Shown piece by piece: positions 31,205 to 46,606 of a DNA stretch of 64,000 bases. Source of the DNA: Scytolyngbya sp. HA4215-MV1 (GTDB taxonomy: Bacteria > Cyanobacteriota > Cyanobacteriia > Leptolyngbyales > Leptolyngbyaceae); the NCBI GenBank assembly GCA_019359045.1, contig JAHHIA010000002.1:490401-554400 (forward strand). Direction: 5' to 3'. The first letter of the stretch is position 1, and each line of letters begins with the position of its first letter. Made by a program: the position numbers and the translations under genes. The notes under the pieces were generated by a model. The model did no database searches. It saw nothing but the letters and a program-made list of their open reading frames with translations, and was not told the DNA's origin.

Positions 31205-31513
31205 ATGCCGATTGCGGTAGGAATGATTGAAACGAAAGGCTTCCCCGCAGTAGTCGAGGCTGCTGATGCCATGGTTAAAGCCGCCCGTGTCACGCTTGTG
31301 GGTTACGAAAAAATCGGCAGTGGTCGCGTTACCGTGATTGTGCGGGGCGATGTTTCCGAAGTGCAGGCATCTGTCTCTGCTGGCATTGAGTCAGTTAAGC
31401 GGGTAAATGGTGGTGAAGTCCTCTCGACTCATATCATTGCGCGCCCTCACGAAAACCTGGAATATGTCTTACCCATCCGTTACACCGAAGTCGTAGAACA
31501 ATTTCGAAGTTGA
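31205..31513 (+). CDS. ccmK2: Carboxysome shell hexamer protein CcmK (CcmK2-like)
   Basis: A 102-residue single BMC-domain protein that forms the hexagonal tiles of the beta-carboxysome shell facets. Starts [20 protein letters not shown]; the pore loop KIGSGR (residues 36-41) is conserved. First gene of ccmK-ccmK-ccmL-ccmM-ccmN-ccmO. It is nearly identical to the next gene over the first 100 residues. The K2 number is by length (about 103 residues, as in Synechocystis CcmK2) and order, and is tentative. The ribosome binding site is TTAGGAGAA. Confidence 0.93.
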
Positions 31514-31610
31514 TGCGATCGGTCGATCGTAAGACCTATTGGCTATTTCCAGGCCTCTCTTTCTGTTGGTTCTTTTTAGATTTTGTTTACCCGTTAAGGA
31601 GTCAAGTACG

Positions 31611-31952
31611 ATGGCAATCGCAGTTGGGATGGTAGAAACCTTGGGCTTTCCTGCTGTTGTGGAAGCCGCAGACGCAATGGTCAAAGCAGCTCGTGTAACC
31701 TTGGTTGGTTACGAAAAAATTGGCAGCGGTCGTGTCACTGTCATTGTCCGAGGCGACGTTTCTGAAGTGCAAGCATCCGTTGCTGCAGGTCTAGAAAGTG
31801 TTCGTCGAGTCAATGGTGGGCAGGTTGTCTCCAGCCACATCATTGCTCGTCCCCACGAAAACCTGGAGTATGTTCTACCGATTCGTTACACCGAAGCAGT
31901 AGAACCGTTCCGTGAAAGCGTGAGCGGCATCCGTCCCTTGAGAGGTGCATAA
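31611..31952 (+). CDS. ccmK1: Carboxysome shell hexamer protein CcmK (CcmK1-like)
   Basis: 113 residues from the ATG at 31611, which follows an AAGGAG box; the frame extends 72 bp further upstream but that part is not BMC sequence. A single BMC domain with KIGSGR pore loop plus a C-terminal extension ([19 protein letters not shown]) that gives it the CcmK1 length. It is a tandem duplicate of the preceding gene, differing mostly in the last helix and tail. The two probably form mixed or alternate facet tiles. Confidence 0.93.
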
Positions 31953-31998
31953 AAGGTTAACGTTCCATTTTTGTCCTCTCAGAGGCGTGTAGAGTTCA

Positions 31999-32298
31999 AT
32001 GCAAATTGCCGAAGTTCGTGGCACGGTTGTTAGTACCCAGAAAGAACCCAGTCTGACAGGGGTAAAGTTCTTGATTGTGCAACTTCTCGATCAGGATGGT
32101 AACCCATTACCGCAATACGAAGTCGCGTTAGATAATGTGGGTGCAGGAGTGGGGGAATGGGTGCTTGTGAGTCGAGGAAGTGCTGCTCGTCAGGTGCCAG
32201 GAAGTGACAAACGTCCTGCTGATGCGGCAGTCATTGCCATCATTGACACGATCAGTGCTGGTAATCGTTCTCTGTATAGCAAGCGCGATCAGTACTAG
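31999..32298 (+). CDS. ccmL: Carboxysome vertex pentamer protein CcmL
   Basis: A 99-residue EutN/CcmL-family protein whose pentamers cap the vertices of the icosahedral shell. MQIAEVRGTVVSTQKEPSLTG, then YEVALDNVGAGVGEWVLVSRGSAAR and DAAVIAIIDTI are the family signatures. It lies 46 bp after the second ccmK and is followed by a 396-bp spacer before ccmM, long for this operon. Confidence 0.95.
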   Translation: MQIAEVRGTVVSTQKEPSLTGVKFLIVQLLDQDGNPLPQYEVALDNVGAGVGEWVLVSRGSAARQVPGSDKRPADAAVIAIIDTISAGNRSLYSKRDQY

Positions 32299-32694
32299 AC
32301 TCGCCCCAGTTTCATTGAAGTTGCCAGACTTCTTGTATAGGAAAGGTTCATTTGGGTTACGCAGCGATCAGCTTGCTTGACAAAAGTGAATTTCTACAAG
32401 AAGTCTATTTATCGCTTCTGATTAGGACGACTCAATCATTACCTGGCAAAGAGATTATCTGTCTTACAAGCTAAAGTTTAGTTTTCATGACGATGTTGCT
32501 ATAAAGCAGTCGGCGGATCAATGACAGAACGAAGCTTCATCGTAATGGTTGGAGCTTCAGCCGTAGGTTCAGGTAATGATTTTCCACTCGATCGAGTGGA
32601 AGCCAAAAATGTCCAATCGAGGACAAATATTTTGTCTTGGTCGAACCTGACTTGCAGAGAGTTCTGCTATATTTTCCGTTGGAGAGATTAATCT
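32299..32694 (+). promoter_or_regulatory. Structured ccmL-ccmM spacer
   Basis: A 396-bp non-coding spacer inside the ccm operon. It holds a 12-bp inverted repeat AATCATTACCTG (32434-32445) with its complement at 32570-32581, enclosing smaller stems such as GAAGCTTC (about 32531-32538) against GGAGCTTC (about 32551-32558). Directly after it is the perfect 20-bp palindrome TTCCACTCGATCGAGTGGAA (32582-32601). GGAGAG precedes the ccmM ATG. It could be a folded leader or an internal processing or promoter region for ccmM; no riboswitch class was recognised. Confidence 0.5.
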
Positions 32695-34380
32695 ATGGCT
32701 GTCCGTAGTTATGCAGCTCCTCCTACGCCCTGGTCACGCACACTGGCTGAACCCAGTATTGATAAAACGGCCTACGTGCATTCTTCTTCCAACATTATTG
32801 GGGATGTCAAAATTGGTCCAGATGTGATGGTCGCCCCGGGCACCTCCATTCGGGCTGATGAAGGCAGTCCCTTTCATATTGGTGAGGGTACGAATGTTCA
32901 GGATGGTGTGGTTATCCACGGGTTAGAGCAGGGGCGTGTTGTTGGCGATGACCAGAATTCTTATTCTGTTTGGATTGGGAGAGACTCGTCCATTACCCAC
33001 ATGGCACTAATTCATGGTCCTGCTTATGTAGGGGATAACTGTTTTATTGGATTTCGTTCAACTGTATTTAATGCGCGGGTGGGTCATGGATGCATTGTGA
33101 TGATGCATGCCTTGATTCAAGATGTAGAAATTCCACCTGGCAAGTATGTCGCTTCTGGATCAATTATCACCAACCAGCAGCAAGCCGATCGTCTGCCGGA
33201 TGTGCAAGATTCAGATGTAAAATTTGCGACTCACGTTGTTGGGATTAATGATGCATTGCGATCAGGCTATCGCTGCGCCGAAAGTATTGCCTGTATTAAT
33301 CCGTTGCGTGATGAGCTCAATCAGGCGGAGACCGCTAGCGGGTCAAATTCAACAAGTAATGGTTCACATAGTCAGGCATACGCAGGGGGAAATCACTTGA
33401 ATTCTGATGTGGTAGATCAAATCCGATATCTGCTTAACCAGGGCTTCCGAATTGGGACTGAGCACGCCGACGAACGTCGTTTCCAAACCAGTTCCTGGAA
33501 AAGCTGTGCACCGATTCAGGCAACTCGCGAATCGGAAGTACTGGCAGAGTTGCAAACTTGTCTCAATGAGCATACGGGTGAATATGTCAGGCTCATTGGT
33601 ATTGATACTCGGCTGAAAAAGCGGGTAGCTGAAACCATTATTCAGCGTCCTGGTAATAAAACTGTTCAAACGTCTGGGCGATCGAATAACTATGTTCAGC
33701 CTGCTGCAAGCAGCCATTCTGCTAGCAGCTATACGAATAACAGCTACGCTTCTGCGGGTGGTTTGGTATCAGAGGTGGCTGAGCAAGTCCGACAACTACT
33801 GGCTCAAGGCTATCGAATTGGCATGGAACATGCCGATGAACGCCGATTCCAGACCAGTTCCTGGAGCAGTTGCAGTCCGATTCAATCTACTCGCCAGGCA
33901 GATGTGATGGCAGGGTTGGAGGCTTGTGTAAAAGAGCACGGCGGCGAATATGTCCGTTTAATTGGCATTGATCCCAAAGTGAAGCGTCGGGTGCTTGAGC
34001 TAATTATTCAACGCCCAGCTGGCAAAACGGTACAATCCAGCGGCCGCTCTACTAGCTATGTTGCTTCTGCGCCATCGAGTGCTAGCAAATCCTCCTACAC
34101 TAGCTCTAGCTTGAAGTCGGAAGTTGTCGATCAGGTTCGTCAGTTATTGGCGCAGGGCTATCAGATCAGTACTGAATATGCAGACAAGCGCCGTTTTCAG
34201 ACTAGTTCTTGGCACAGCAACGGCATTATTCAAGTGAATCGAGAAGTTGAGGTGCTGGCAAATCTAGAATCTCTCCTGGCGGTTCATAGCAGTGACTATG
34301 TTCGGCTAATCGGTATCGAACCTAAAACCAAGCGGCGAGTGGTCGAATCGATTATTCACCGCCCCGGGAAAAAGCAATGA
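32695..34380 (+). CDS. ccmM: Carboxysome scaffold CcmM (gamma-carbonic-anhydrase domain plus three SSUL repeats)
   Basis: 561 residues. Residues 1-200 form a left-handed beta-helix gamma-carbonic-anhydrase domain with zinc-ligand histidines H75, H102 and H107. C194 and C200 match the disulfide needed for activity in Thermosynechococcus CcmM, so this domain is probably active. After a Ser/Asn linker come three Rubisco-small-subunit-like (SSUL) modules, near 235-325, 355-447 and 468-561. Each has the [12 protein letters not shown] or [12 protein letters not shown] and [16 protein letters not shown] motifs and they condense Rubisco. The first two SSULs carry a Cys pair 18 residues apart (C271/C289 in the first) for redox control; the third lacks it. 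An internal start for the short form is described separately. Confidence 0.97.
33384..33399 (+). promoter_or_regulatory. Internal ribosome binding site and TTG start for short CcmM (M35-type)
   Basis: AGGGGGA (33384-33390) lies 6 nt before an in-frame TTG (33397-33399), codon 235 of ccmM, at the junction of linker and first SSUL module. Translation from here gives 327 residues (about 36 kDa) with all three SSULs, the size of the M35 form made by internal initiation in Synechococcus elongatus. The spacing and the strong purine box are seen; use as a start is inferred. Confidence 0.65.
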
Positions 34381-34503
34381 ACTAGGGAGGAGCTGCTTAC
34401 CATTGCTTAACTCGTAAGGAATGAGGTCAGGTCAGGTGCTGGGTGTCAAACAACTTGTCACACCTAGTGCCTGACTTCTGCCTAAAGGATATTAAAACGA
34501 CCC

Positions 34504-35076
34504 ATGCCAACTTCGTATTATTACCATATAAGTGGGGACGTAACGATTCATGAAAGTGCCACGATCGCCCCTGGAGTCATTCTTCAGGCAGATCCTAACA
34601 GTCGCATTATCATCGAATCAGGGGTTTGCATTGGTAGCGGTTCTGTCTTACATGCCCATGAAGGAACGTTAGAAATTGCCCAAAGCGTTACGATTGGAAC
34701 GAAGGTGTTGCTGATTGGCAAACTAAAGATTGGAGCAAACGCCTGTATTGGTTCTGCTTCTACCCTGTTCAACTGTTCCTTAGAAGCTGGACAGGTTATC
34801 CCTCCCGATTCCTTATTAGGAAATTGTGGTCGTCAGGTAGAAGTCTTAGAAACTGCTGATACAGCTATCCCGACACCTGGCCCTGAGCAATCTGTCTCTC
34901 CAGACTCCTCTTCCTCGGATGATTCTCAGACGACCGCTGAATGGTCAGTCTTTCAGGCTTCGGGTAAGGTGCAAGGGAAAGTATATGGACAAGTGTATGT
35001 CAGCCGGATTATTGCAAAAATGATGCCCAATTCCAAACAATTTGGAACGCCGCAGGATAACCAACCTCAGTCATGA
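34504..35076 (+). CDS. ccmN: Carboxysome assembly protein CcmN
   Basis: 190 residues. The N-terminal hexapeptide-repeat beta-helix (about 10-125) binds CcmM. A flexible Pro/Ser/Asp-rich linker (about 125-160) leads to a C-terminal amphipathic encapsulation helix (VYGQVYVSRIIAKMMPNS, about 165-182) that recruits the CcmK shell. The ATGA overlap with ccmO (35073-35076) indicates translational coupling. Confidence 0.95.
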   Translation: MPTSYYYHISGDVTIHESATIAPGVILQADPNSRIIIESGVCIGSGSVLHAHEGTLEIAQSVTIGTKVLLIGKLKIGANACIGSASTLFNCSLEAGQVIPPDSLLGNCGRQVEVLETADTAIPTPGPEQSVSPDSSSSDDSQTTAEWSVFQASGKVQGKVYGQVYVSRIIAKMMPNSKQFGTPQDNQPQS

Positions 35077-35879
35077 GCTTACTAGAAGACTATACAGATA
35101 CTGCACTGGGTCTAGTTTCTGTGGGAAGTTTCCCAGCGATCGTGGGGATCGCTGACACGATGCTGAAATCAGCAGGGGTTCATCTCGTTGGGTACGAAAA
35201 AATTGGGAGTGGGCTTTGTACAGCGGTGGTGCGGGGTGGCATTGCTGATGTGCGGTTAGCAGTTGAAGCTGGTGCGGAAGTGGCTGAGCAATATGGACAA
35301 CCTGCTTCAACTTTAGTGATTGCCAGACCTATGCCAAATTTGGAAGCTGTTCTACCGATCGGCAATCGTCTAGCACAATTAGCTAGTGGTCGAGGCAATA
35401 GCCGTCTGAGCAACCAGGCAGTCGGTCTGCTCGAAACTCGTGGTTTTCCAGCGATGGTAGGGGCTGCTGATGCGATGCTCAAAGCCGCTGATGTGGTCTT
35501 AGCAGCTCATGAAGTTACAGGCGCAGGTTTGTGTACAGCAATTATTCGAGGCAATGTGGCAAATGTGGCGATCGCACTCGATGTCGGAATGCATGAAGCT
35601 GAGCGTATTGGCGAATTACACGCCGTCATGCTAGTACCTCGTCCGCTAGATGACTTGGATCAAACCCTTCCTCTGGCAAGTTGCTGGCTCGAAAAACCTG
35701 AACCGCTCCGGATGCCGATCGCGATTAAAGAGCAGCAGAAAGACTTGCTTGCTATTCCTGATCTCAAACAGATTACCGTCGAGAAAGAAGAGATTCCCTT
35801 AGCAGAAGTCGAAATCGTCAAGGAACTTCCTCTGTTCTTGGCTGAGCTGCCCCCTGAACCGCAAAATCCTCAGGAATAA
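35073..35879 (+). CDS. ccmO: Tandem-BMC carboxysome shell protein CcmO
   Basis: 268 residues with two BMC domains (about 10-95 and 112-200: ALGLVSVGSFPAIVGIADTM and AVGLLETRGFPAMVGAADAM), giving pseudohexameric trimers needed for shell closure. A C-terminal acidic tail of about 60 residues (EEIPLAEVEIVKELPLFLAEL) follows. Last gene of the ccm operon, overlapping ccmN by 4 bp and converging on the gas vesicle gene gvpG. Rubisco genes do not follow, so rbcLS must be elsewhere. Confidence 0.95.
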   Translation: MSLLEDYTDTALGLVSVGSFPAIVGIADTMLKSAGVHLVGYEKIGSGLCTAVVRGGIADVRLAVEAGAEVAEQYGQPASTLVIARPMPNLEAVLPIGNRLAQLASGRGNSRLSNQAVGLLETRGFPAMVGAADAMLKAADVVLAAHEVTGAGLCTAIIRGNVANVAIALDVGMHEAERIGELHAVMLVPRPLDDLDQTLPLASCWLEKPEPLRMPIAIKEQQKDLLAIPDLKQITVEKEEIPLAEVEIVKELPLFLAELPPEPQNPQE

Positions 35880-35989: not shown

Positions 35990-36238
35990 TCACTCATCCT
36001 CTGCATTTGCAGCAGCCCTCGCTTCATCTTCCAAGGCTTGAATCGCGAGTAGCAATTCTTCCTCCTGAATTTCAAACTCCTTTTCGGGAATTTCACCCAT
36101 ATCAAAAGCAAGTTGTAGCGCCAGTAACCGCTTACCTAAGTTTTCTTTGTCATCCAGCTCCGCATCTGCGTGTTCTTGGATTTGTTCAGCAATCCAGCCG
36201 ATGCCAGTGATAGGAGCGAAAAGCAGACGGAGGAGCAT
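35990..36238 (-). CDS. gvpG: Gas vesicle protein GvpG
   Basis: 82 residues from the ATG at 36238. The open frame begins further upstream, but family members start at a LLRLLFAPITG-like hydrophobic stretch, as here. The rest is an acidic helical region (AEQIQEHADAELDDKENLGKRLLALQLAFDMGEIPEKEFE), typical of GvpG. It is an assembly cofactor acting with GvpF/L in vesicle nucleation. Last gene of the minus-strand gvp cluster, 160 bp after gvpF. Confidence 0.92.
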   Translation of the reverse strand: MLLRLLFAPITGIGWIAEQIQEHADAELDDKENLGKRLLALQLAFDMGEIPEKEFEIQEEELLLAIQALEDEARAAANAEDE

Positions 36239-36398
36239 AAGAAGTTGGGTAAGAGGGGTGGTAGGGGAAGAAGGGACGGTCAGACACAAGCATGAAAAAA
36301 ACAAGATACAGTAAGAGGAGGTAAAGCTTTTTAACGCCAGATTTCTAATACTGACTCTGACTTTCCAACTCTCTGAAAACCTAAAACCTGATATACCG

Positions 36399-37142
36399 CT
36401 AATCTAACTGATCTAAGCGTGCAAAGTTATAGGGGGCAGTGAAGTTGTTATAACGAATTTTAAGTCGCTGCTCGAATTGTTCATCCAGTGCTTCAACTTG
36501 CTGGCTAAAGTTAGCTTCAGAGTCCCAATCAATCAAATAGGCAGCATTGTAGATCATGGTATCGGTCATCAGATCATTTTCGGCGATCGTGATTGCCATA
36601 GGGTTAAGAATTGCCTGAAATGCTTCAATAATCTCCTTTTTGCGTTGAGCCATTGCTTTCTCGATCGCCTGCCCAATTGCCACCACCTCATCCATGCTCA
36701 AATTTTTCCCTTCTAAACTGTCACGCTTTAACCTCAGAGCATCATCTTCTGCCATGAGTGACTGGAGTTCCGTCTGATTGTCCCAAAACAACTTGATCCC
36801 CACTTCCCGATACCCGTCCAATTTCTGAAACAGCTTTTCCAGACTTTCTCGATGGGGGGCCGTGAGTTGTTGAGTCACTGCTTCCCAGCTTTCTACAATT
36901 AAGCCAAACTGCAACGGTAATAAAGTCCGATAACCTGCCTGCATTGCTTGCTCCAACACTTTCTCGTGCCCCAGCAAATTGCGCCGACTGGCAAGATATC
37001 GTTCCTGTAATGCTTCAGAGTAGAGGAATGCAAATCCATCGACCACTTGTTTATAGACGGGCTGCTGATCCAAGCCTTTGAGTTCTAAATCCTCAGGACC
37101 TGGAGTGGGAAAAATACCGTAGAGGTAGAGTCGATTGCCCAT
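36399..37142 (-). CDS. gvpF: Gas vesicle protein GvpF (GvpF/L family)
   Basis: 247 residues, ATG at 37142. The N-terminal domain opens RLYLYGIFPTPG and contains ILPLQFG-type strands (LLPLQFGLIVES). The second, helical domain (GYREVGIKLFWDN, then a long charged helix) ends with MIYNAAYLIDWD and APYNFARLDQLD, the classic GvpF C-terminal pattern. It binds GvpA during nucleation. It lies between gvpK and gvpG in the cluster. The other family member at 23.2 kb is shorter and lacks the full MIYNAAYL segment. Confidence 0.94.
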   Translation of the reverse strand: MGNRLYLYGIFPTPGPEDLELKGLDQQPVYKQVVDGFAFLYSEALQERYLASRRNLLGHEKVLEQAMQAGYRTLLPLQFGLIVESWEAVTQQLTAPHRESLEKLFQKLDGYREVGIKLFWDNQTELQSLMAEDDALRLKRDSLEGKNLSMDEVVAIGQAIEKAMAQRKKEIIEAFQAILNPMAITIAENDLMTDTMIYNAAYLIDWDSEANFSQQVEALDEQFEQRLKIRYNNFTAPYNFARLDQLD

Positions 37143-37249
37143 AGGAAGTAATGAGGGTGCAAGAGTGAAGAGGAGAAGAAGTAGAAGTTGACACTGAGAA
37201 GCTCATTCCACTGGATGAATATGAGTTATTCTCTCGATCTCCGCAATAC

Positions 37250-37768
37250 TTAAAGTGGCTTTGCGGTCAAAACCAATTGTAATCTGGCATGAATTAGCTC
37301 AAGATTTGCCAATCCCAAGTTGACATCACCCTGGAGGACAACACCAGTATTGAGAAGTCGATCAAGGAGTTCTAAAATTGTGGGATTGGCAGTGTTTTCA
37401 CCAGGATAGTAACCGCCTGTTTTGGGTAGCAGCGTTCCCACTTCACCCAAATCGATGTTGAGATCAGCCGGATTAATCTCGAACACATCGCACAGTTGAA
37501 CCACTTGTTCTTCAAGTTTTCGGAGGCTCTCTGCTGCGCGTTCGAGGTCTTGGTCACTCAGTTCGCCTTCTTCCATACGGCGAATAACTTGTGCTTCCAT
37601 TAGTTGTCGGACTAACTCTACTACCGTTAACAATAACGGAGCCAGCCCTGCATCTTTGCTGGCTTTAGGAGGGTTGGGAATAGCTTGAATGGGTAAATCG
37701 GGAGAAGACACCTGGTTTGGGTTGCGATCGCCTAGTGCAATTGTAGGCAGGTAAATCAGATTCAACAT
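37250..37768 (-). CDS. gvpK: Gas vesicle protein GvpK
   Basis: 172 residues from the ATG at 37768; the longer frame (to 37879) overlaps the zinc-knuckle gene and is unlikely to be used. The GvpK domain (about 50-160) has LAPLLLTVVELVRQLMEAQVIRRMEEG, EQVVQLCDVFEINPADLNIDLGEVG and NLGLANLELIHARL. GvpK is a conserved assembly protein required for vesicle formation. It lies 17 bp downstream of the zinc-knuckle ORF and 107 bp upstream of gvpF. Confidence 0.93.
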   Translation of the reverse strand: MLNLIYLPTIALGDRNPNQVSSPDLPIQAIPNPPKASKDAGLAPLLLTVVELVRQLMEAQVIRRMEEGELSDQDLERAAESLRKLEEQVVQLCDVFEINPADLNIDLGEVGTLLPKTGGYYPGENTANPTILELLDRLLNTGVVLQGDVNLGLANLELIHARLQLVLTAKPL

Positions 37769-37785
37769 CAATTGCGAGTTCGTTT

Positions 37786-38142
37786 TTAACTGGCAGAATC
37801 TACCAGCCCCGAACCATGACACAAGTAGCAATACAAGCCATTTGCTTGATTCGTTCCTGTTCCCCCACAACGTGGACAACTAAATGAGCGGTTTGCTTGA
37901 GATTGCACAGCTTTGCCACCACAGGCAAGGCAAGGATTACGAGTTCCCGTAGGAGAAATTCCTGTTTTCCGACAATAGACACAGTCTATCAAAGGAAGTG
38001 TTACCCAATGAGTTCCGGTTCCATGACAGGCTTGGCAGGTTGATTGAGGAGACATCACACCAAAGCGATCGCGTCCTTTGCCCTGACAATAGGCACACTG
38101 AACCTGAACACTGCCTGAGAGGGGTAAATTTTGCTGAATCAT
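37786..38142 (-). CDS. DnaJ-type zinc-knuckle protein without a J domain, inside the gvp cluster
   Basis: 118 residues with six Cys-rich knuckles: CAYCQGKG, CQACHGTG, CVYCRKTG, CLACGGKA, CPRCGGTG and CYLCHGSG. This is the CxxCxGxG pattern of the DnaJ central zinc domain, which holds two Zn from four knuckles. Six knuckles imply up to three Zn sites. There is no J domain, so it cannot act as a standard Hsp70 partner. It is tightly packed between gvpK (17 bp) and the small ORF upstream, so it is probably co-transcribed. A thiol-redox or unfolded-protein-binding role for gas vesicle proteins is an inference. I do not know a standard gvp name for it. Confidence 0.85.
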   Translation of the reverse strand: MIQQNLPLSGSVQVQCAYCQGKGRDRFGVMSPQSTCQACHGTGTHWVTLPLIDCVYCRKTGISPTGTRNPCLACGGKAVQSQANRSFSCPRCGGTGTNQANGLYCYLCHGSGLVDSAS

Positions 38143-38194
38143 GATGTGCCTCTAGAAGGACTTAGTAGTTCTAGTAACACACACCCTGGGCTGA

Positions 38195-38389
38195 TCAAAT
38201 GATTCGGTTGCGGTACATTGTATCCAGCCATTGACGACGCGCTTCATTTGAGAGTGTTTGAGCCATACCAGACATCATCCGTGCGCGATCGCTGGCAACA
38301 ACGTAGGTTTTACCCAGCAAGCTACTTGAGCGAGAACTCAAAATTGTTCTGCTGGTTGGAATCTGTTTCATCGTTCTAATCGTAATCAT
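38195..38389 (-). CDS. Possible small basic protein in the gvp cluster
   Basis: Up to 64 residues from the ATG at 38389; a GTG at 38401 and an ATG at 38371 (MKQIPTSRTIL) are alternatives. The sequence is Ser/Arg-rich at first (SRTILSSRSSSLLGKTYVVASD), then helical (SNEARRQWLDTMYRN). No Shine-Dalgarno sequence and no recognised family. The reason to list it is location: it fills the gap between gvpJ and the zinc-knuckle gene on the same strand. Confidence 0.4.
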   Translation of the reverse strand: MITIRTMKQIPTSRTILSSRSSSLLGKTYVVASDRARMMSGMAQTLSNEARRQWLDTMYRNRII

Positions 38390-38496
38390 GCGTGCGCTCA
38401 CTCATATCCAGTAGGCTGTGTGGGTATTGTTTGTAAAAGGATTGTGGTAGGTTCCTGGCATCCTTAGATAAAAATACTCACTTTTACAGGGTGATC

Positions 38497-38922
38497 TCAA
38501 AACTCCAGCATATCCAGTGAGAGTTCAGACTCATCGTGATTAGTTGCAACACTTCCGTTCGCAGGCGGTAAGCGCAGCGCACGCAATTCAGTTTCCAAAC
38601 TTTCTACGCGTTGTTGCAGCTTTTGGTTTGCTTCTAACAGATTTTGAGTTTGAGAACTAAAGTGGGGATTGTTTTCCCACCAGTTAATTCCAATTTCTCT
38701 GGCTTTATCCACCGAAGAAATCAACAGCCGAATGCGGATATTGAGCAACTCTGTAGACGCAACAGAGACCGAAATATCCCCTGCAATCACGATGCCTTTA
38801 TCGAGCACGCGCTCCAGTACATCTGCCAGAGTTGAGCCTTGTGTTGAAGTCGTAATGGCTCTGGCTGAGTCACGAGGTGCAATGGGTGAAGAACTTGCCC
38901 TGGTTGGTGTGGTCATGGTCAT
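38497..38922 (-). CDS. gvpJ: Gas vesicle protein GvpJ (GvpA/J/M family)
   Basis: 141 residues. The GvpA-like core (about 28-78: [49 protein letters not shown]) is preceded by a Ser/Thr/Arg-rich head and followed by an extended helical tail ([21 protein letters not shown]) with an acidic end. GvpJ is a minor, GvpA-like protein of the vesicle tips. Its start codon overlaps the gvpN stop (ATGA), so it is translationally coupled to gvpN. Confidence 0.93.
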
Positions 38923-40373
38923 GATGCAACCTCTACATTCACAAAGAATAAGCGATCGCGCTGCACAACTCGACCTTGCTCCGACAGAGATCTGAGCGCA
39001 TCAACCGTTTGAAATCTGTCCAACTGAAGTGCTTTTTCAATCTGAGAAAGCTTTGCACCAGGATTATCCTGAATATAAGTATAAATCTCTCGCTCATGAG
39101 GGACTACTGCCGCAACCGAAGCTGGTACTGTTTCTACCGCTTCGGTTGCTAAAGGATGCGCCTCTGCAAGTATGGCTTTAGTCGGCAATTCATTCTCTTG
39201 CTGCAAAGGTAATTGATTCTCATCAGGTCTAGGTGATTTCTCCTGGTTAGGCATCACCATTTCAGCTACCTCTGCTGGCAGTTCAGTCGCTTCTGCCTGG
39301 ACTGAAGCCAACTTTTCCGGCTCAATTTTGGACTGAATGGACTCAAGAAGGTTAGCTGGTGCTGGCTCAATCTTTTCAGTGCCAGCGGTCAGCGAAACAG
39401 CCGATGCTTGGATGGTGGTTTGTTCGGGTTCAGGGGTTTCTACAGCTCCCACGATCGGCAAATCATCAAATTCAGATTGTTCTAGGTCAAGTCCTACCAT
39501 TTCATTCAGCAAATCCCACAGAATGGTAGTTGCTTCAGCAAAAGGCAAGGCTGAGCGTGATAACAATACATCACAGCACACATCCCGGAATTCCGAATTC
39601 TCAGCTAAAACGAAAATTTCATGTTCTCGGCACACTTTGGCAATCATGAGACCGGAACGCAATCCAGATGCTTTATCTGTCTTGGTTCTGATGCGGAATT
39701 CTTTTACCAGCCGAACAATTAATACAGCACTGGCACGATCGATTTCAGTTTTCTGGACCAGAATTTCCTGTTGCGTCAGTTCATCTGGCTCTGGCATGTT
39801 GATAGTAACCAGGCGATCCAGCAGGGCATCTTGAGTAGCGTGAACTCCACAATACTCTTCTGGGTTTGAAGTGAAGATGGCCCGGAAATTTGGACTGACG
39901 CGAATATATTCGCTGCGGTTATTGCTGGGTGGTAATACTAACAGCTTTTCTTCCAGAGCAGATAATAGTACGTTGTTTACTTCTGGGCGAGAACGGTTGA
40001 ACTCGTCGTAAACCAGAGTAAATCCCTCTCGGCAAGCCAAGGTAAGGCGAGAATCGACCCAGTTCTGCCGTAGCTCATCTTCGACTTTGACAACGCTGTG
40101 GATAAAGTTGTCTACTACTTTTTTACGAGTGTAGCCCGATTGGTTACCAATCAAGTCAGAGGTTTTGAACTCGTCATCGCCAAAGATCAGCATGATAGGA
40201 CGGGCGATTAAATCCGCCAGATGCAGTGCCAGAGTGGTTTTGCCAGTGCCTGCCGGACCTCGCAGATGCACCGAAAAGCCCGATTGCAAATAGCGCAAGG
40301 CTCGGATAGCCACTCTTTCGACGGAGGGAGTGCTGACAAATCGCCGGGGGCTGGCTCGAAGTACAGTGGTCAC
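38919..40373 (-). CDS. gvpN: Gas vesicle ATPase GvpN with a C-terminal winged-helix-like extension
   Basis: 484 residues, about 100 longer than the usual GvpN. The MoxR-like AAA+ domain (1-300) has Walker [10 protein letters not shown] at 39-47, Walker [11 protein letters not shown], a sensor segment FTSNPEEY and an arginine-rich [12 protein letters not shown] region. A low-complexity Glu/Pro/Ala linker (about 310-420) leads to a C-terminal module (about 425-484: [21 protein letters not shown], then [24 protein letters not shown]) with winged-helix character. The same module ends GvpC, the adjacent gene. GvpN drives vesicle growth. It lies 100 bp downstream of gvpC and overlaps gvpJ. Confidence 0.95.
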
Positions 40374-40473
40374 AGTTGATCCTCTTAAATGAAATTAGGA
40401 TGGGAGTAAATTCAATGAGATGGGGGATGGGTCTATTGTTGGTTCTGCTGCCTAACTGCTGTTGATTGGTTTA

Positions 40474-41721
40474 TTAAACAAACGTTTCTTGTGCGAGATA
40501 GACGCGATCTCGCTGTGTGACTAGTCCTTTTTTAATCAAAGATCGCAGAGCATCGACTGCTTGAAACCGACTAATTCCCAAAGCTGACTCGATTTGAGTT
40601 AACCGTGCGCCTTGAATTTCATGGATGTAGTTGTAGACATCCTTCTCATAAACGATCGCATCTTCCAGAATTGCCTTGGTGCCTTGGGTAGGCGGTACAG
40701 TTTCAACGGAAGGCATTGTCGCTACCGATACCTCAACGTTATTCACCACGGGGTTGGTAGGTTTGTTTTCCGCAACAGGTGTCGAGACAACTGGCGCCGA
40801 GGCGACAGGCGGACTCGGTGGAGCACTAGGAACCACCGTTAGCGATCGAGGTGTGCTCTTTACAGCTGGCTCTTTGGCAGTCGGTTGGGTTACTTGTACG
40901 GATGAGGACGACGAGTGAGTTCCCCAAACGGTTTGATGCAAATTTGCCTGAAATGCTTTCAGCTCTGTTCGAAACTCGCCTAAACGGGTGAACAAGCTTT
41001 GAACTTCCGCAAAACGATCGTCACGGCTTTGGCTTAGTGTTTGACTCAGCTGTTCGGCGCGCTGTTGCCGTTGAGTTGCTACTTCTAGCAGATAAAGCTC
41101 AACTTCCTGACGAAGATTGTCGGTGAAGGCTGCCAGATCCTGAGTAAGTTGCATTTTGACCTGGAGGCGCTGCTGCTGGTTGATGGCTAGAGATTGCTGG
41201 GTATCAATTCGCAAAGCTTCGACTTCTGATTGGATTTGCTGGTGCAAAAGCTGGATTTCTTGCCGCAGCGCAACGACTGTTGTGGCCAGGCGGGTGTGGA
41301 ATGCTTGCAAATCTTGAGAAAGTTGTTGAGCCATGGTGGAGCGTTCAGCTCTCGTCAATGCCAGAAATTCAACCGTTTGATGTTGAAGTGCCTGAACAAA
41401 AGCATCCAGTTGTTGTGCTAATGCCTGTGCTTGTGCTTGACGCCGATCATTCGCGCTACTTAAGAACGCCTGAGTTTCTTGCTGAAGTGTTTGACAAAAT
41501 TGTTGCAACTCTGACTGAAACTTTTGGCATTGGAGGCTGCGAACTTTTTCGTTCTGCATCAAGCTCTCACGGAACAGGCTCAAATCATCCCGTAGCTGCG
41601 CTGCCGTATGTTGGCGTTCTTGCCGTGCTGATGCCAGAGATTCTTGGACTTGTTGTTGACGTTGCGCGAATTCTTGCTGGCGGTGTTGACGTTGCGCCTG
41701 CCACTCATGTCTTAGAGCCAT
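40474..41721 (-). CDS. gvpC: Gas vesicle outer-surface protein GvpC, long form
   Basis: 415 residues from the ATG at 41721, which has GGGAGGAAT just upstream; the frame opens earlier but without a comparable site. After a Gln/Arg-rich head come about five 33-residue-type helical repeats (about 40-270) with the L..F...L pattern (KFQSELQQFCQTLQQETQAFL, ALAQQLDAFVQALQHQTVEFL, QLTQDLAAFTDNLRQEVELYL). These bind along the GvpA ribs and stiffen the vesicle. A Pro/Ser/Val-rich linker (about 275-350) leads to a C-terminal winged-helix-like module (VYNYIHEIQGARLTQIESAL, then RFQAVDALRSLIKKG) shared with GvpN. It is far longer than the 193-residue Anabaena GvpC. Confidence 0.92.
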   Translation of the reverse strand: MALRHEWQAQRQHRQQEFAQRQQQVQESLASARQERQHTAAQLRDDLSLFRESLMQNEKVRSLQCQKFQSELQQFCQTLQQETQAFLSSANDRRQAQAQALAQQLDAFVQALQHQTVEFLALTRAERSTMAQQLSQDLQAFHTRLATTVVALRQEIQLLHQQIQSEVEALRIDTQQSLAINQQQRLQVKMQLTQDLAAFTDNLRQEVELYLLEVATQRQQRAEQLSQTLSQSRDDRFAEVQSLFTRLGEFRTELKAFQANLHQTVWGTHSSSSSVQVTQPTAKEPAVKSTPRSLTVVPSAPPSPPVASAPVVSTPVAENKPTNPVVNNVEVSVATMPSVETVPPTQGTKAILEDAIVYEKDVYNYIHEIQGARLTQIESALGISRFQAVDALRSLIKKGLVTQRDRVYLAQETFV

Positions 41722-41795
41722 TCGAGATTCCTCCCGTGAGTTGGAGATGGATGAATTTAGAGAATGCTGGGGTTGGAAAGGAGAGAAATCGGAAA

Positions 41796-41823
41796 GTTGA
41801 GGAGCCAGGCTTGACTCCTCAAC
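41796..41823 (-). promoter_or_regulatory. gvpA-gvpC intercistronic hairpin
   Basis: A 9-bp stem (GTTGAGGAG at 41796-41804 with CTCCTCAAC at 41815-41823) and a 10-nt loop begins 10 bp after the gvpA stop codon. No T-run follows on the minus strand, so it is more likely an mRNA-stabilising or attenuating hairpin than a full terminator. That would leave gvpA transcripts in excess over gvpC, as the protein ratio in gas vesicles requires. Confidence 0.65.
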
Positions 41824-41833
41824 ACCACACACA

Positions 41834-42052
41834 CTAAGCAGCAGGAACAGCAGCTTGAGCAGTCAAACCAACTGCTTCAGCGTACTTGAGGTAGGTTTCT
41901 ACGGAGGCGATCACGACACGAGCTTCAATTGCTAGCAATTCGATACCGACTAAAGAAACACGAACCCAAGCATCAATCACGATTCCTTTGTCGAGAATAC
42001 GATCGACAACTTCAGCCAAGCTTGAGGAAGAGTTTACTTTTTCGACAGCCAT
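41834..42052 (-). CDS. gvpA: Major gas vesicle shell protein GvpA
   Basis: 72 residues, almost the canonical cyanobacterial Gvp[21 protein letters not shown], the [23 protein letters not shown] two-helix/two-strand rib core and the C-terminal tail [10 protein letters not shown]. It polymerises into the ribbed, gas-permeable wall. It has an AGGA ribosome binding site upstream. Only one copy is seen, whereas many cyanobacteria carry several tandem gvpA genes. First structural gene of the cluster, preceded by a 354-bp promoter region. Confidence 0.97.
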
Positions 42053-42406
42053 GGTTTTAATCCTGTAGTGAATTTGAATTGGAACTTGGTTCGCCTTGCC
42101 CCTTCCCTTGTCAAGTAGGGATTGTTTTGGGTTTGGCTTCCGTCACTAGGATAGACATCCAACGAGTCGAGAATAGCCAGGACAAACACTGAACCTTACT
42201 GATATGTTGGGGGCGGTGTTCGCAGAATTACGGAGATGCTTAGCATTTATTTATATTGTAAAGAGATAATTTCAGATACGGAGAGATACCTGAAAAGCTT
42301 GCCTAGTGAAGTCATTCCGTAAAATCACAGGAAAGTTTTTGGGGATTCTACGGAACGACTCGAAGAGCTGAAAGATAAATTTTTACGGATTATTCCGGTT
42401 GTCTTC
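42053..42406 (-). promoter_or_regulatory. gvpA upstream region with five TACGGA motifs
   Basis: 354 bp without an ORF. The hexamer TACGGA occurs at 42229-42234, 42277-42282, 42349-42354 and 42384-42389, and in reverse (TCCGTA) at 42316-42321. Starts are 33-48 bp apart, and most copies sit in the context T-T/A-TACGGA-A/T. This is well above chance for so short a stretch and suggests a multi-site operator or activator array for gas vesicle genes. TATTTATATTGTAAAG at about 42247-42262 may hold the core promoter. Confidence 0.5.
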
Positions 42407-42673
42407 CTAATCTGTTTGTACTCTGCGCTCAAACTCTTCACGGGTTTGTTCGACTTGTGCCAGAGCGATCGGGTAGATATCAGAATGTTCTTGCTTCAGC
42501 CAAGCCAACAAACGAGCCAGTTGGGCGTTTCTCAGATCCAAATCTGTTTGAAAAATGGCTGCTGTTGCTATGTGTGCAGCATATTCGGGTGGATGACCCT
42601 GGGTGATAAATGTGGCCGTAAGGGCTGCTAACGCTTGTTGTTTAACTGGGTCAGTATTTTGTTCAGAAATCAT
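42407..42673 (-). CDS. Unrecognised 88-residue protein between the AAA ATPase and gvpA
   Basis: 88 residues, predicted largely helical: VKQQALAALTATFITQGHPPEY, then AAHIATAAIFQTDLDLRNAQLARLLAWLKQE and a charged tail QTREEFERRVQTD. No Cys, no signal peptide, no membrane segment, and no family I recognise. It starts 20 bp after the AAA ATPase stop on the same strand, so the two are almost certainly co-transcribed. It lies 354 bp before gvpA. An accessory or adaptor role for the ATPase is a guess from position. Confidence 0.75.
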   Translation of the reverse strand: MISEQNTDPVKQQALAALTATFITQGHPPEYAAHIATAAIFQTDLDLRNAQLARLLAWLKQEHSDIYPIALAQVEQTREEFERRVQTD

Positions 42674-42693: not shown

Positions 42694-44538
42694 TCAGGTT
42701 GATGAACGTTGCTCGGTCAAAATTTGATGGGCAACAGCAAAGTCATCCATCGTGATTTGGATGCTGCTGGGGTCAGTGGCACCTTGGGCACGGTAGCGAC
42801 GAATCGCTTCTAGGGCTGCCTGGTTAGTAAGCAGTGCCAGATCAGCTCCATTCCAGCCTTCGGTATGGGTTGCCCAATGTGCCAGGTCAACTTCGGTCAA
42901 GGGCCGATCGTTGTTATGCACCTGCAAAATGGCAAAGCGACTGGATTGGTCAGGCAAATCTACTTTCAGTTGCAGATCCAAGCGCCCAGCCCGAAGTAGC
43001 GCAGGATCAAGGGCGTCGGGGCGATTGGTTGCGCCGACTAGCAGCACATTAGGGCACCCCTGAAGACCATCTAGTTCAGTTAAAAGCTGCCCAACAACGC
43101 GATCGCTTACTCCGGAATCACCTGCAAAGCGTCCGCGTGCTGGTGCTAAGGTATCAATTTCATCGACAAAGACGACACAGGGAGCTGCTTGTCGTGCTTT
43201 GGTAAATAGCTCTCGCACTGCTTGTTCTGCAGCCCCGACCCAACGACTCAATAGTTCAGGACCATTGATCGCGATGAAGTTTGCTCGTGCCTGGGAAGCG
43301 ACTGCTTTTGCCAGTAGCGTTTTTCCAGTGCCGGGTGGTCCCCAAAGCAGAATGCCACGGGGGGCTTTTGCGCCCGTCTGTTGGTAAAGTTCAGGGTAGA
43401 GAAGGGCGCCCTCAACGGACTCTTGCAGGGTTTGTTTGATGTCTGCCAAGCCGCCAATGTCGTCCCAGGCAATGTTAGGAGATTCGACCTCAACCGATCG
43501 CAGCACCGAAGGTTTGATTTCTTTGAGGGCTTGCAGAAAATCTGCCTGTATGACAGTCATATTTTCAGGAATGGGGTCTGCAAGGGAAAGAACCTGCCGT
43601 CGCAATGCTGTGTAGGCAGCTTTTTGGCAAACTGCTTTTAGGTCTGCGCCTACCATGCCCACTGAGAGATCCGCGATCGCTGCTAAATCGACCGATTCAT
43701 CCAATGGCATGATGCGGGTGAGAATGGCGAGAATTTCCTGTCTGCCTGCCCGATCAGGCACCCGAAACTGCACTTCGCGATCGAACCGACCGGGACGGCG
43801 TAAGGCTGGATCGAGATGATCAGGACGATTCGTGGCCGCTAAAACAATCACTCCTTTGGTGTTGGCAAACCCATCCATTAGGCTGAGAAGTTGAGCCACA
43901 ACGCGCTTCTCAACTTCACCTTCTACCTTGCTGCGATCGGGCGCAAGGCTATCAATCTCATCAATAAACACAATGCAGGGAGCCGCCTTAGCCGCTTTCT
44001 CAAAAATGTTGCGCAGGCGACCTTCTGCTTCGCCATAGTATTTGCCCATGACTTCGGGACCCACAATGGCGATGTAGTTGACACCGAGTTCTTCTGCCAA
44101 GACACGAGCTGTGAGGGTTTTGCCCGTGCCTGGTGGTCCTACTAAAAGAACCCCGCGTGTTGGCTCTAATCCCAACCGATCCAGTAAGTCCGATCGTTTG
44201 AGGGGAATCTCAACAAGTTCTCGCAATTCACGAAGAATTTCTGTTAATCCCCCTACGTTTTGCAGGTGGGATGTGGGCGCATCTGCACCTGGGACGGGCG
44301 GGGGCGTTATGATTACGTCTGGGTCAGAAGTTGGGTTGGAGGTGGTTGATGCGGCGGTGGAATGGGTTTTCATCCGGCTAACCCCCATCCCCGTTGGAAT
44401 GTTGCCCTGGGGGGGAATATTACTGAGAGAACGAGCGTTGATCTGAATATTGGTCTTCAGTTCTCCCTTTTCTGCCTTTTCTTCTAATGCTTTGGCAATT
44501 TCTAGTAATTGCTCAAATCCTTTAAATAAATCACTCAT
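42694..44538 (-). CDS. Two-domain AAA+ ATPase, CDC48/p97-like, next to gas vesicle genes
   Basis: 614 residues from the ATG at 44538 (MSDLFKGFEQLLEIAKALEE); the frame is open 67 codons further, but that part is arginine-rich non-homologous sequence. A charged N-terminal helix (1-30) and a low-complexity linker replace the p97 N domain. D1: Walker A GPPGTGKT, Walker B CIVFIDEID, sensor AATNRPD, Arg finger region RRPGRFDR. D2: GPPGTGKT, CVVFVDEID, GATNRPD, LLRAGRLDL. Both domains look catalytically intact. It is a protein unfoldase or segregase type. CDC48-like genes occur beside gvp genes in other bacteria, so a role in vesicle assembly or quality control is plausible but unproven. Confidence 0.9.
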   Translation of the reverse strand: MSDLFKGFEQLLEIAKALEEKAEKGELKTNIQINARSLSNIPPQGNIPTGMGVSRMKTHSTAASTTSNPTSDPDVIITPPPVPGADAPTSHLQNVGGLTEILRELRELVEIPLKRSDLLDRLGLEPTRGVLLVGPPGTGKTLTARVLAEELGVNYIAIVGPEVMGKYYGEAEGRLRNIFEKAAKAAPCIVFIDEIDSLAPDRSKVEGEVEKRVVAQLLSLMDGFANTKGVIVLAATNRPDHLDPALRRPGRFDREVQFRVPDRAGRQEILAILTRIMPLDESVDLAAIADLSVGMVGADLKAVCQKAAYTALRRQVLSLADPIPENMTVIQADFLQALKEIKPSVLRSVEVESPNIAWDDIGGLADIKQTLQESVEGALLYPELYQQTGAKAPRGILLWGPPGTGKTLLAKAVASQARANFIAINGPELLSRWVGAAEQAVRELFTKARQAAPCVVFVDEIDTLAPARGRFAGDSGVSDRVVGQLLTELDGLQGCPNVLLVGATNRPDALDPALLRAGRLDLQLKVDLPDQSSRFAILQVHNNDRPLTEVDLAHWATHTEGWNGADLALLTNQAALEAIRRYRAQGATDPSSIQITMDDFAVAHQILTEQRSST

Positions 44539-44680
44539 CTGCCAGTACCGTTGGGTTGAAAGCTCGATAAGACGGCTCTTTGCAATGCACCGTTCGCAAT
44601 TGAGGAGACCCTTTAGCGAGTAGCTAAACCCTAATCGCTCAAGCCACGCTCTGTAATAAGTGTTCCCACTGAATTTTGGT

Positions 44681-46606
44681 ATGAAGCAGTTCGATCGTTT
44701 AAATCTGGCAATGTTTAGCGGCAAGGGAGGGGTTGGCAAAACGACGCTTTCCTGTAGCTTTGCTTATTATTGGGCAAAGAAATTTCCAACTGAAAAGATT
44801 TTGCTCTTATCGACTGATCCGGCACATTCGTTGGGAGATGTCTTGCAACTGCCAGTTCACGAAGTACCCGAAGCCGTTTTAGAGCAGTCCAATCTGAAGG
44901 TGCAGGCACTGGATGCTCGTAACTTGCTGGAAGACTTTAAAGCAAAGTATGGTGAAGTTTTGGAACTGCTGGTTGAACGAGGCAGTTTCGTGCAAACCGA
45001 AGATTTGTCACCAGTTTGGGATTTGGGATTTCCTGGACTGGATGAATTAATGAGTATTTTGGAAATTCAACGCCTATTGTGTGAACATGCGGTCGATCGC
45101 ATTGTGGTAGATATGGCTCCCAGTGGTCACACACTGAACCTATTTGGCTTGATGGACTTCCTGGATCAATTTTTGAGTGCATTAGAGCTTTTTCAGGAAA
45201 AGCATCGGTTCATTAGCCAATCGTTTACAGGGCGTTATACCGCTGATGTGGCAGATCAGTTTTTGCAAGACATGAAAACTGATCTCATGAGGGGGCGACA
45301 ATTGCTGCAAAACCGGGATTTTACTGCCTGTCTGGTGGTGGCGATCGCCGAGCCCATGAGCCTGCTGGAAACCCAACGCTTTCTAGAAGCATTAGAAAAA
45401 TTGCACATCCCATTTGGTGGACTGTTTGTGAATCGGGTAGTGACGAACGCAGACTCATCGCCCCAAACTGGTAAGCCCAACCCTCAACCGCTACCGACTA
45501 CTGCTCGACTCGATCGCTACGCTGAGCAACAACAGTTGCTGCAAAAATTCACTGCCCTGACAGATGCTCAACCCCTCTTTACAGTGTTGCAGCAAGTCGA
45601 AGAACCAGTAGGGTTACCTGCACTGGCACACCTCCTGACCCAAGTTCAACCGATTGAAGGGCATCTCAATCTAATTCAGCCGCCTGCGATCGTTTTTCCA
45701 GACCCAGTTCTCCCCAGTTTCAGTGATTTTGTCGTTGAGGGACGACAACTGATTTTAGTGGGCGGTAAGGGCGGTGTTGGTAAAACAACAGTAGCGGCAG
45801 CGATCGCCTGGGGCATGGCAGAAAAACATCCTGATCGCAGGATTCGGGTAATCTCGATCGATCCGGCTCATTCATTGGGGGATGCTTTGGGTCAAACACT
45901 GGGGCATCAGTCAATACAGCTCACGTCGAACCTGAGTGGACAAGAAGTCAATGCTGACTTCGTGCTGGATCAATTTCGGCAAGACTATCTTTGGGAACTT
46001 GCAGAGATGATGAGTGGCGAATCTGGCAATGCAGAAAGTACGCTCAAAATTGCTTATGGACCTGAAGCCTGGCGCAAAATTGTTGCTCAAGCTTTGCCCG
46101 GAATTGACGAAATCCTTTCCCTCATCACTGTAATGGAATTGCTGGAATCCAAAGCGCAGGATTTGATTATTTTAGATACGGCACCCACTGGACATCTGCT
46201 GCGTTTCTTGGAAATGCCTTCGGCATTGGGAGACTGGCTCGCCTGGATCTTTAAGCTCTGGATTAAGTATCAAGATGTGTTGGGAAGAACTGAGTTTATG
46301 GGGCGGTTACGAACCTTACGCCAGCGGGTGATGCAGGCACAGAAAAAGCTGAGAGATGCTCAGTACACCGAATTCATTGGGGTCGTGCAGGCGCAATCTG
46401 CAATTACCGCCGAAGCGCAGCGATTATCAGCCTCCCTGGACAAGATGGGAATTGCCCAACGCTATATTGTGCATAACCGTTATGAAAGGGGACAACTGCT
46501 GCTCGGTGAATTGTTTATCGGCAAAACGATCGTCCACTTACCACAATTACCCCGTTCCATTGCTCCTTTAGAAAGAATTATTGGGGCAGCAAGCTTGTTA
46601 TTTTAG
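44681..46606 (+). CDS. Tandem ArsA/Get3-like ATPase, divergent from the gvp cluster
   Basis: About 641 residues from the ATG at 44681; a GTG at 44660 is possible. It holds two complete ArsA/Get3 P-loop domains, each with a deviant Walker A: GKGGVGKTT at 14-22, and again near residue 363. DPAHSLGD switch-I motifs (near 48 and 400) and APSGHT/APTGHLLR segments (near 147 and 504) follow. The metal-binding Cys triad of arsenite pumps is absent and no arsB/arsR genes are near. A Get3-like membrane- or hydrophobic-protein targeting role is therefore more likely than arsenite export. It is 142 bp from, and divergent to, the CDC48-like gene, so a shared promoter region is likely. A link to GvpA handling is inference. 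Confidence 0.9.
   Translation: MKQFDRLNLAMFSGKGGVGKTTLSCSFAYYWAKKFPTEKILLLSTDPAHSLGDVLQLPVHEVPEAVLEQSNLKVQALDARNLLEDFKAKYGEVLELLVERGSFVQTEDLSPVWDLGFPGLDELMSILEIQRLLCEHAVDRIVVDMAPSGHTLNLFGLMDFLDQFLSALELFQEKHRFISQSFTGRYTADVADQFLQDMKTDLMRGRQLLQNRDFTACLVVAIAEPMSLLETQRFLEALEKLHIPFGGLFVNRVVTNADSSPQTGKPNPQPLPTTARLDRYAEQQQLLQKFTALTDAQPLFTVLQQVEEPVGLPALAHLLTQVQPIEGHLNLIQPPAIVFPDPVLPSFSDFVVEGRQLILVGGKGGVGKTTVAAAIAWGMAEKHPDRRIRVISIDPAHSLGDALGQTLGHQSIQLTSNLSGQEVNADFVLDQFRQDYLWELAEMMSGESGNAESTLKIAYGPEAWRKIVAQALPGIDEILSLITVMELLESKAQDLIILDTAPTGHLLRFLEMPSALGDWLAWIFKLWIKYQDVLGRTEFMGRLRTLRQRVMQAQKKLRDAQYTEFIGVVQAQSAITAEAQRLSASLDKMGIAQRYIVHNRYERGQLLLGELFIGKTIVHLPQLPRSIAPLERIIGAASLLF

Follow-up and report, generated by a model that had tools for sequence, protein, structure and literature searches.

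The 64,000-nucleotide stretch of Scytolyngbya sp. HA4215-MV1 analyzed here (contig JAHHIA010000002.1, positions 490,401 to 554,400; "the window" in the following, from whose first letter all coordinates are counted) carries a gas vesicle gene cluster in which the proteins GvpN and GvpC end in similar tails. The host genome comprises about 6.6 Mb and the relatives of the window are cyanobacteria. A check on the window sequence finds both genes on the reverse strand, where an earlier reading of the letters alone (the sequence-only reading) had placed them. The gene gvpN (38919-40373) encodes a protein scoring 397.2 bits against TIGR02640 (cut-off 266.8), and the product of gvpC (40474-41721) matches the 33-residue repeat family TIGR02641 in two stretches with 21.9 bits (cut-off 18.8); against PF01304 it reaches 20.5 bits, just short of the cut-off of 21.

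Both proteins are organized in three parts. GvpN starts with an AAA+ ATPase part (residues 1-303, 39465..40373; TIGR02640 covers residues 12-273, and AAA_5 matches with 67.3 bits), which is followed by a probably disordered linker (approximately residues 304-420, 39114..39464) and a C-terminal domain with a predicted winged-helix fold (approximately residues 424-479, 38937..39104; profile match 8.9e-24). GvpC consists of a helical repeat part (residues 1-267, 40921..41721, the better of the two TIGR02641 stretches spanning residues 77-108), a linker rich in proline, serine and valine (approximately residues 268-355, 40657..40920, read off the translation) and a C-terminal domain of the same predicted type (approximately residues 356-411, 40489..40656; profile match 1.5e-27). 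The notion that both linkers are disordered finds support for GvpN in the low confidence of its model, with a predicted local distance difference test score (pLDDT) below 50 at residues 304-339, 341-343 and 363-420; for GvpC it is judged from composition alone. Among relatives the GvpN linker has an approximate median length of 66 residues and ranges from 11 to 384 (57 open reading frames).

Homology and predicted fold of the two tails

When the last 65 residues of GvpN and GvpC are compared, 53 residues align without a gap, 28 of them identical, with a BLOSUM62 score of 150. The highest score in 2000 shuffles is 47, and the remaining sequence of the two proteins outside the tails aligns with a score of 38. 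BLASTP gives E = 1.5e-16. The tails thus align along their length, as had been noticed in the letters, and on this similarity they are homologous domains of about 55 residues with clear common ancestry. In a comparison over 54 residues, 27 are identical, 8 of these 27 are encoded by the same codon, and 91 of 162 nucleotides agree, which is an argument that the duplication of the tail is not recent. Only these two copies of the domain were found in the genome itself, the next matches having E >1.

The GvpC domain was modeled with AlphaFold2 from an alignment of 39 copies from both proteins. The model has a mean pLDDT of 95.8 and a predicted template modeling score of 0.78, with the order helix-helix-helix-strand-strand. 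The same order is predicted for the GvpN domain (helices at 427-436, 442-449 and 453-465, strands at 469-472 and 475-478) in a full-length GvpN model built from 35 GvpN proteins only, where the block means of pLDDT are 81 at residues 421-430 and 95-98 at 431-480. The mean over this whole model is 70.1; residues 66-102 are of low confidence in addition to 304-420, and about 115 low-confidence residues precede the domain. The structure prediction named earlier as a check on the likeness of the tails was carried out, and they model alike, not differently.

The best PDB fold match of the GvpC model is 7bzh (Z 11.1, root mean square deviation 1.0, 56 residues aligned), with further close matches to 1sfx (Z 10.9), Z-alpha domains and MarR-type regulators. 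The protein-binding winged helix of RPA32C (4ou0) is found as well (Z 10.2, root mean square deviation 1.2, 56 residues aligned). The GvpC model reaches a Z of at least 8 with 319 of the 997 chains compared, and the models of both domains show the three helices and the beta hairpin (wing) of the winged-helix superfamily. Foldseek alone, run with the short GvpC domain, returned no match with E <0.001 (best 7.4e-3). On the sequence side, 36 of the 39 domain copies match Pfam TrmB (PF01978) at E <=1, the best with 2.1e-9; relative to the gathering cut-off of 25.6 bits, the GvpC domain alone scores 28.6, whole GvpC 23.6 and whole GvpN 14.6. The best PDB sequence match is again 1sfx (E 0.004). The winged helix suspected by the sequence-only reading therefore stands for both copies in the predicted order of elements and for the GvpC copy in the fold matches, and the fold can be regarded as secure as a prediction.

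Distribution in cyanobacteria

To describe the distribution we use two sets. The even sample consists of 386 genomes spread across the phylum, with a domain match threshold of E <1e-12; at most 17 and at most 6 candidates per genome were scored in its two scans, and copies may be missed. A second carrier was called GvpC by its position and open-frame length, and genomes G276, G332 and G123 were inspected. GvpN is present in 55 of the 386 genomes. Domain matches fall in 25 genomes, and since every one of these has GvpN, the domain is tied to gas vesicles. The 55 GvpN genomes are divided into 18 with the domain on both GvpN and GvpC, 7 with GvpN only, none with GvpC only and 30 with neither (Fisher p 3e-9, kinship uncorrected). 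A distance of approximately 5 to 6 kb separates the two genes in four genomes (G123, G276, G332 and G374), where both nevertheless keep the domain. Six weaker matches of the even sample (L118-L121, L123, L124) were inspected by eye and represent other winged-helix-like proteins, two of them small and the remainder STAND-type NTPases or a fragment of one.

The nearer set contains the best 80 of 96 loci obtained with a full-length GvpN query holding a domain peptide, which favors carriers, and its copy counts include near-identical relatives. Here the domain occurs on GvpN in 57 loci and on a second protein encoded just before gvpN in 49, leading to 42 loci with both, 15 with GvpN only, 7 with GvpC only and 16 with neither. 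Four of the 15 GvpN-only loci (L036, L042, L052, L059) end before gvpC, and one of the seven GvpC-only loci has a frame-broken GvpN copy of the domain. The co-occurrence expected by the earlier reading is therefore evident in the even sample, while the GvpC-only loci of the nearer set indicate that the pair is not obligatory.

We further scanned 30 second carriers, 28 out of the 49 nearer-locus proteins and two others. Their repeats are divergent (TIGR02641 is matched by 10 of the 30 and PF01304 by 4, E <=0.01), and all 30 align end to end with the GvpC of the window as one family (hhalign E 3.7e-85). The sequence-only reading had held that the module is part of neither classical protein. This needs correction: cyanobacterial GvpN widely carries the domain, as does a type of GvpC whose repeats are divergent, and for some GvpN proteins without it a secondary loss is visible. 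A GvpN-only state is found on a plasmid of Nostoc sphaeroides, where a domain-free GvpC of four standard repeats adjoins a domain-bearing GvpN. For the GvpN of Octadecabacter and Methylosinus, two proteins only, Pfam at E <=0.1 finds no winged helix.

Loss, duplication and selection

Among the 23 domain-free GvpN frames of the nearer set, 11 carry signs of a former domain. Stop-ridden or frame-broken remnants directly follow the gvpN stop codon in six of the 23 (L057, L074, L075, L080, L081, L083), GvpN ends inside the first helix of the domain in four (L072, L077, L079, L082), and in L037 the GvpN copy is split across two frames. The best forward E-values of the remnant matches range from 2e-9 to 0.01 per locus, compared to 0.48 for the best reverse-strand control. 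The other 12 frames show no countable sign by this remnant test. Records of Dolichospermum, Anabaena, Calothrix, Nodularia and Anabaenopsis are among the loci with such signs. In several Dolichospermum/Anabaena-type loci the GvpN copy has thus decayed to remnants. A corresponding search for remnants of the GvpC copy found none: across 27 loci lacking that copy, the best match upstream of gvpN had an E of 2.2 (reverse-strand control 2.9).

A tree of the domain was calculated from 83 copies and 52 columns, with half of the inner branches being weak. The labels for copies on GvpN (N copies) and on GvpC (C copies) require four changes on this tree, compared to approximately 28 in shuffles. A constrained tree which keeps the N copies together has a likelihood above that of the free search (p-value of the approximately unbiased test 0.80). 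One old duplication would therefore fit the data and is not rejected, yet it is unproved. Gene conversion or coadaptation of N and C copies within genomes was looked for and not seen (p 0.27 in an identity test; partial correlation -0.02, p 0.57).

Both copies are under purifying selection. The median ratio of nonsynonymous to synonymous substitution rates is 0.096 for N copies (99 pairs) and 0.139 for C copies (188 pairs), and no value exceeds 1; the pairs were taken at 60% identity or more and overlap, hence they are not independent. An earlier estimate for the C copies had given a median of 0.165 (137 pairs).

Neighboring genes

The gas vesicle cluster (35990-42052, reverse strand) meets a group of forward-strand genes at 31205-35879 tail to tail, which from their translations we take to be carboxysome shell and ccm genes. 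Within the cluster, the frame at 37250-37879 (reverse strand) combines GvpK with a GvpA/J-type domain (PF05121 at residues 72-151, PF00741 at 167-205). Between gvpJ and gvpK, and overlapping the gvpK frame, lies a gene for a 118-residue zinc protein of DnaJ type with CxxCxGxG motifs (37786-38142, reverse strand; PF00684, 35.1 bits, cut-off 32.7). The cluster is bordered at 42694-46606 by genes for two ATPases, a double AAA ATPase that resembles Cdc48 on visual inspection and a tandem ArsA ATPase. ArsA and AAA genes also adjoin the gvp genes on plasmid p4 of Nostoc sphaeroides, and on Methylosinus pMSC49b the gvp genes have a CDC48 AAA gene as a neighbor.

A possible docking role and its alternatives

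Classical GvpC covers the outside of the gas vesicle shell, and the GvpC of the window should therefore show its terminal domains, or heads, on the vesicle surface. We propose, tentatively and with close to even confidence, that the tails of GvpN and GvpC represent paralogous winged-helix heads for protein docking on flexible C-terminal tethers, which could recruit GvpN to the GvpC-coated shell. The head of GvpN would bring the growth ATPase to this surface, either by pairing with the head of GvpC or by binding a partner common to both heads, and the recruited GvpN might then act where new GvpA enters the shell. Three parts of this proposal are inferred, namely a protein as the ligand, contact between GvpN and GvpC by way of their heads, and an effect on vesicle growth.

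A hint towards such a mechanism comes from Halobacterium (here and below, published statements refer to the accessible portions of the papers cited). There, the partners of a C-terminal GvpC fragment (aa 329-382) include GvpC, GvpN and GvpO, and it is only through this fragment that GvpC contacted GvpN and GvpO (PMC9372576). It was proposed in a review that GvpN or GvpO bound at the GvpC C-terminus interrupts the GvpC mesh at the site of GvpA insertion (PMC9501494). As the cyanobacterial domain is linked to gas vesicles, tethered, conserved and present on the coat protein as well as on the elongation ATPase, we read it as a functional counterpart of the Halobacterium GvpC C-terminus. In favor of docking we also count the like fold and common ancestry of the two heads, the purifying selection on both, the presence of RPA32C among the close fold matches, and the charge and wing features described below.

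Several observations weigh against the docking proposal. DNA-binding proteins make up most of the closest matches by fold and by family, and no direct binding evidence for cyanobacteria was encountered in the open-access literature searched. A comparison of the domain with the pNRC200 GvpC by hhalign gives a probability of 0.1%, for one 285-residue sequence that possibly differs from the variant used in PMC9372576. The identity between N and C copies is the same within as between genomes (45.4% versus a permutation mean of 44.9%, 25 representatives), and their distances are not correlated once the GvpN core is taken into account (28 representatives). GvpC-only loci account for 7 of the 80 nearer loci and GvpN-only genomes for 7 of the 55 in the even sample; pairing of the heads therefore cannot be their sole use. 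Finally, two points slightly lower our confidence in a docking role: the second carrier belongs to a divergent GvpC type, and no bootstrap tree unites the N copies (0 of 200, with two to five changes), which leaves a single origin unproved.

The heads might instead bind DNA or RNA, reporting the vesicle state or the level of GvpN and GvpC to gvp transcription, or tethering vesicles to the nucleoid. This is in agreement with the DNA-binding proteins among the best fold matches and with the TrmB similarity described above, and with two arginines, one at model column 28 (56 of 58 N copies and all 50 C copies) and one in the wing at column 49 (48 of the 50 C copies). The mean net charge, however, is near neutral, with +0.2 for N copies (-4 to +6, 58 copies) and +0.7 for C copies (-3 to +4, 50 copies), and the end of the wing is absent in 25 of the 58 N copies, compared to none of the 50 C copies. 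Both features are unlike what one shared DNA target would lead us to expect, and GvpC, which bears one of the copies, is generally known as a shell-surface protein. A link to transcription through TACGGA repeats, as put forward by the sequence-only reading, is not borne out either. Within the 450 bp upstream of gvpA in the window (about 42053-42502) there are 5 TCCGTA/TACGGA hexamers versus 0.31 expected, whereas elsewhere 12 occur in 45 loci with the domain on GvpC (0.27 each) and 9 in 23 loci without it (0.39 each). A conserved operator was rejected, the counts being independent of the domain. We consider nucleic acid binding unlikely and rank it first among the alternatives.

The head of GvpC could also act mainly as a linker between GvpC molecules, knitting the coat or bundling neighboring vesicles, with a lesser role for the GvpN copy. 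C copies are indeed better conserved (63% versus 42% mean identity), all 50 are acidic at column 33 and aromatic at column 51 in the wing, the existence of GvpC-only loci would be accommodated, and for Halobacterium a strong signal between two GvpC C-termini was reported (rf 20.7, PMC9372576). This does not sit well with the wider occurrence of the N copy in the even sample, 25 genomes compared to 18, nor with the purifying selection that acts on it likewise; we rank this reading second and regard it as doubtful. In third place, and improbable too, we see the possibility that the two heads share a third Gvp protein as their partner (e.g., of GvpF/L, GvpJ or GvpK type) rather than binding each other. 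It would account for conservation without coadaptation between N and C copies and recalls that the Halobacterium GvpC C-terminus binds GvpF, H, I and L as well (PMC9501494), but no such partner was identified, and no search was made for genes that co-occur with the domain.

Relation to known systems

The similarity between GvpC and GvpN has partly been in print before. In Planktothrix, the C-terminus of GvpC40 contains a 28-residue stretch with 64% identity to the Planktothrix GvpN, and it resembles a 60-residue stretch of the Geitlerinema GvpC (PMC5259702, 2017). The 40 kDa GvpC belongs to non-planktic strains, while planktic strains have a shorter GvpC (PMC5259702). The accessible portion of that report is without domain limits, the winged-helix fold, a wider survey, the duplication history, remnants or a function. 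As far as the literature was searched, the fold, domain limits, survey, duplication, remnants and selection data are new: the open-access literature searched returned nothing connecting GvpN with a winged helix, older Planktothrix GvpC papers lying outside this scope, and what it returned for gas vesicles, GvpC and "helix-turn-helix" concerns, in its accessible part, regulators and haloarchaeal genomes.

The GvpC of Halobacterium salinarum is comparable to the cyanobacterial one in having a small globular head after the repeats which binds GvpN, GvpO and GvpC, and differs in that its fragment is described with a zinc-finger motif (PMC9372576). Kinship of the domain with halobacterial GvpC, GvpN or GvpO was considered, and no homology was detected with a single pNRC200 sequence each, which is a weak test. 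At its end, the halobacterial pNRC200 GvpC (L128, 9310-10167) shows a weak match to ROS_MUCR zinc fingers (E 0.0013, under the cut-off). In both groups GvpC may thus end in a fold that commonly binds DNA.

With the winged helices of TrmB/MarR type (PF01978; 1sfx, 7bzh) the Gvp domain has in common the fold and the succession from helix 2 through helix 3 to the wing. Unlike these regulators it does not stand alone, but sits on a tether at the C-terminus of a coat protein and of an ATPase. RPA32C, whose winged helix is likewise C-terminal and follows a linker, shares the fold with the GvpC head; a sequence kinship is not established and we use it as a working analogy.

Taken together, one may sketch a broader picture, which we consider improbable as a whole. 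Many cyanobacterial vesicles would display winged-helix heads that recruit GvpN via its paralogous head, a DNA-binding fold thereby having become a docking code, and haloarchaea would have arrived at this design too, using a zinc-finger-like head that is apparently unrelated. Head loss, visible in decaying remnants, would accompany permanently planktonic life, and the vesicles usually studied in the laboratory would stem from lineages that lost them. Sphaerospermopsis, presumably planktonic, keeps its GvpN copy, which counts against the idea of a planktonic loss. This idea is based on organism names among the nearer loci and on the contrast between benthic and planktic strains in PMC5259702.

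According to an interaction study from 2024 it is unclear how assembly factors aid the insertion of shell proteins, with GvpN likely being involved (PMC11445434). A domain common to GvpN and the outer-surface protein GvpC provides a small, testable handle on how GvpN acts during vesicle growth. Our results suggest that Dolichospermum/Anabaena-type loci can encode a reduced GvpN, and work on such proteins may miss a recruitment route that is kept in other cyanobacteria. The tethered head of GvpC could, moreover, represent a natural docking site for engineered vesicles.

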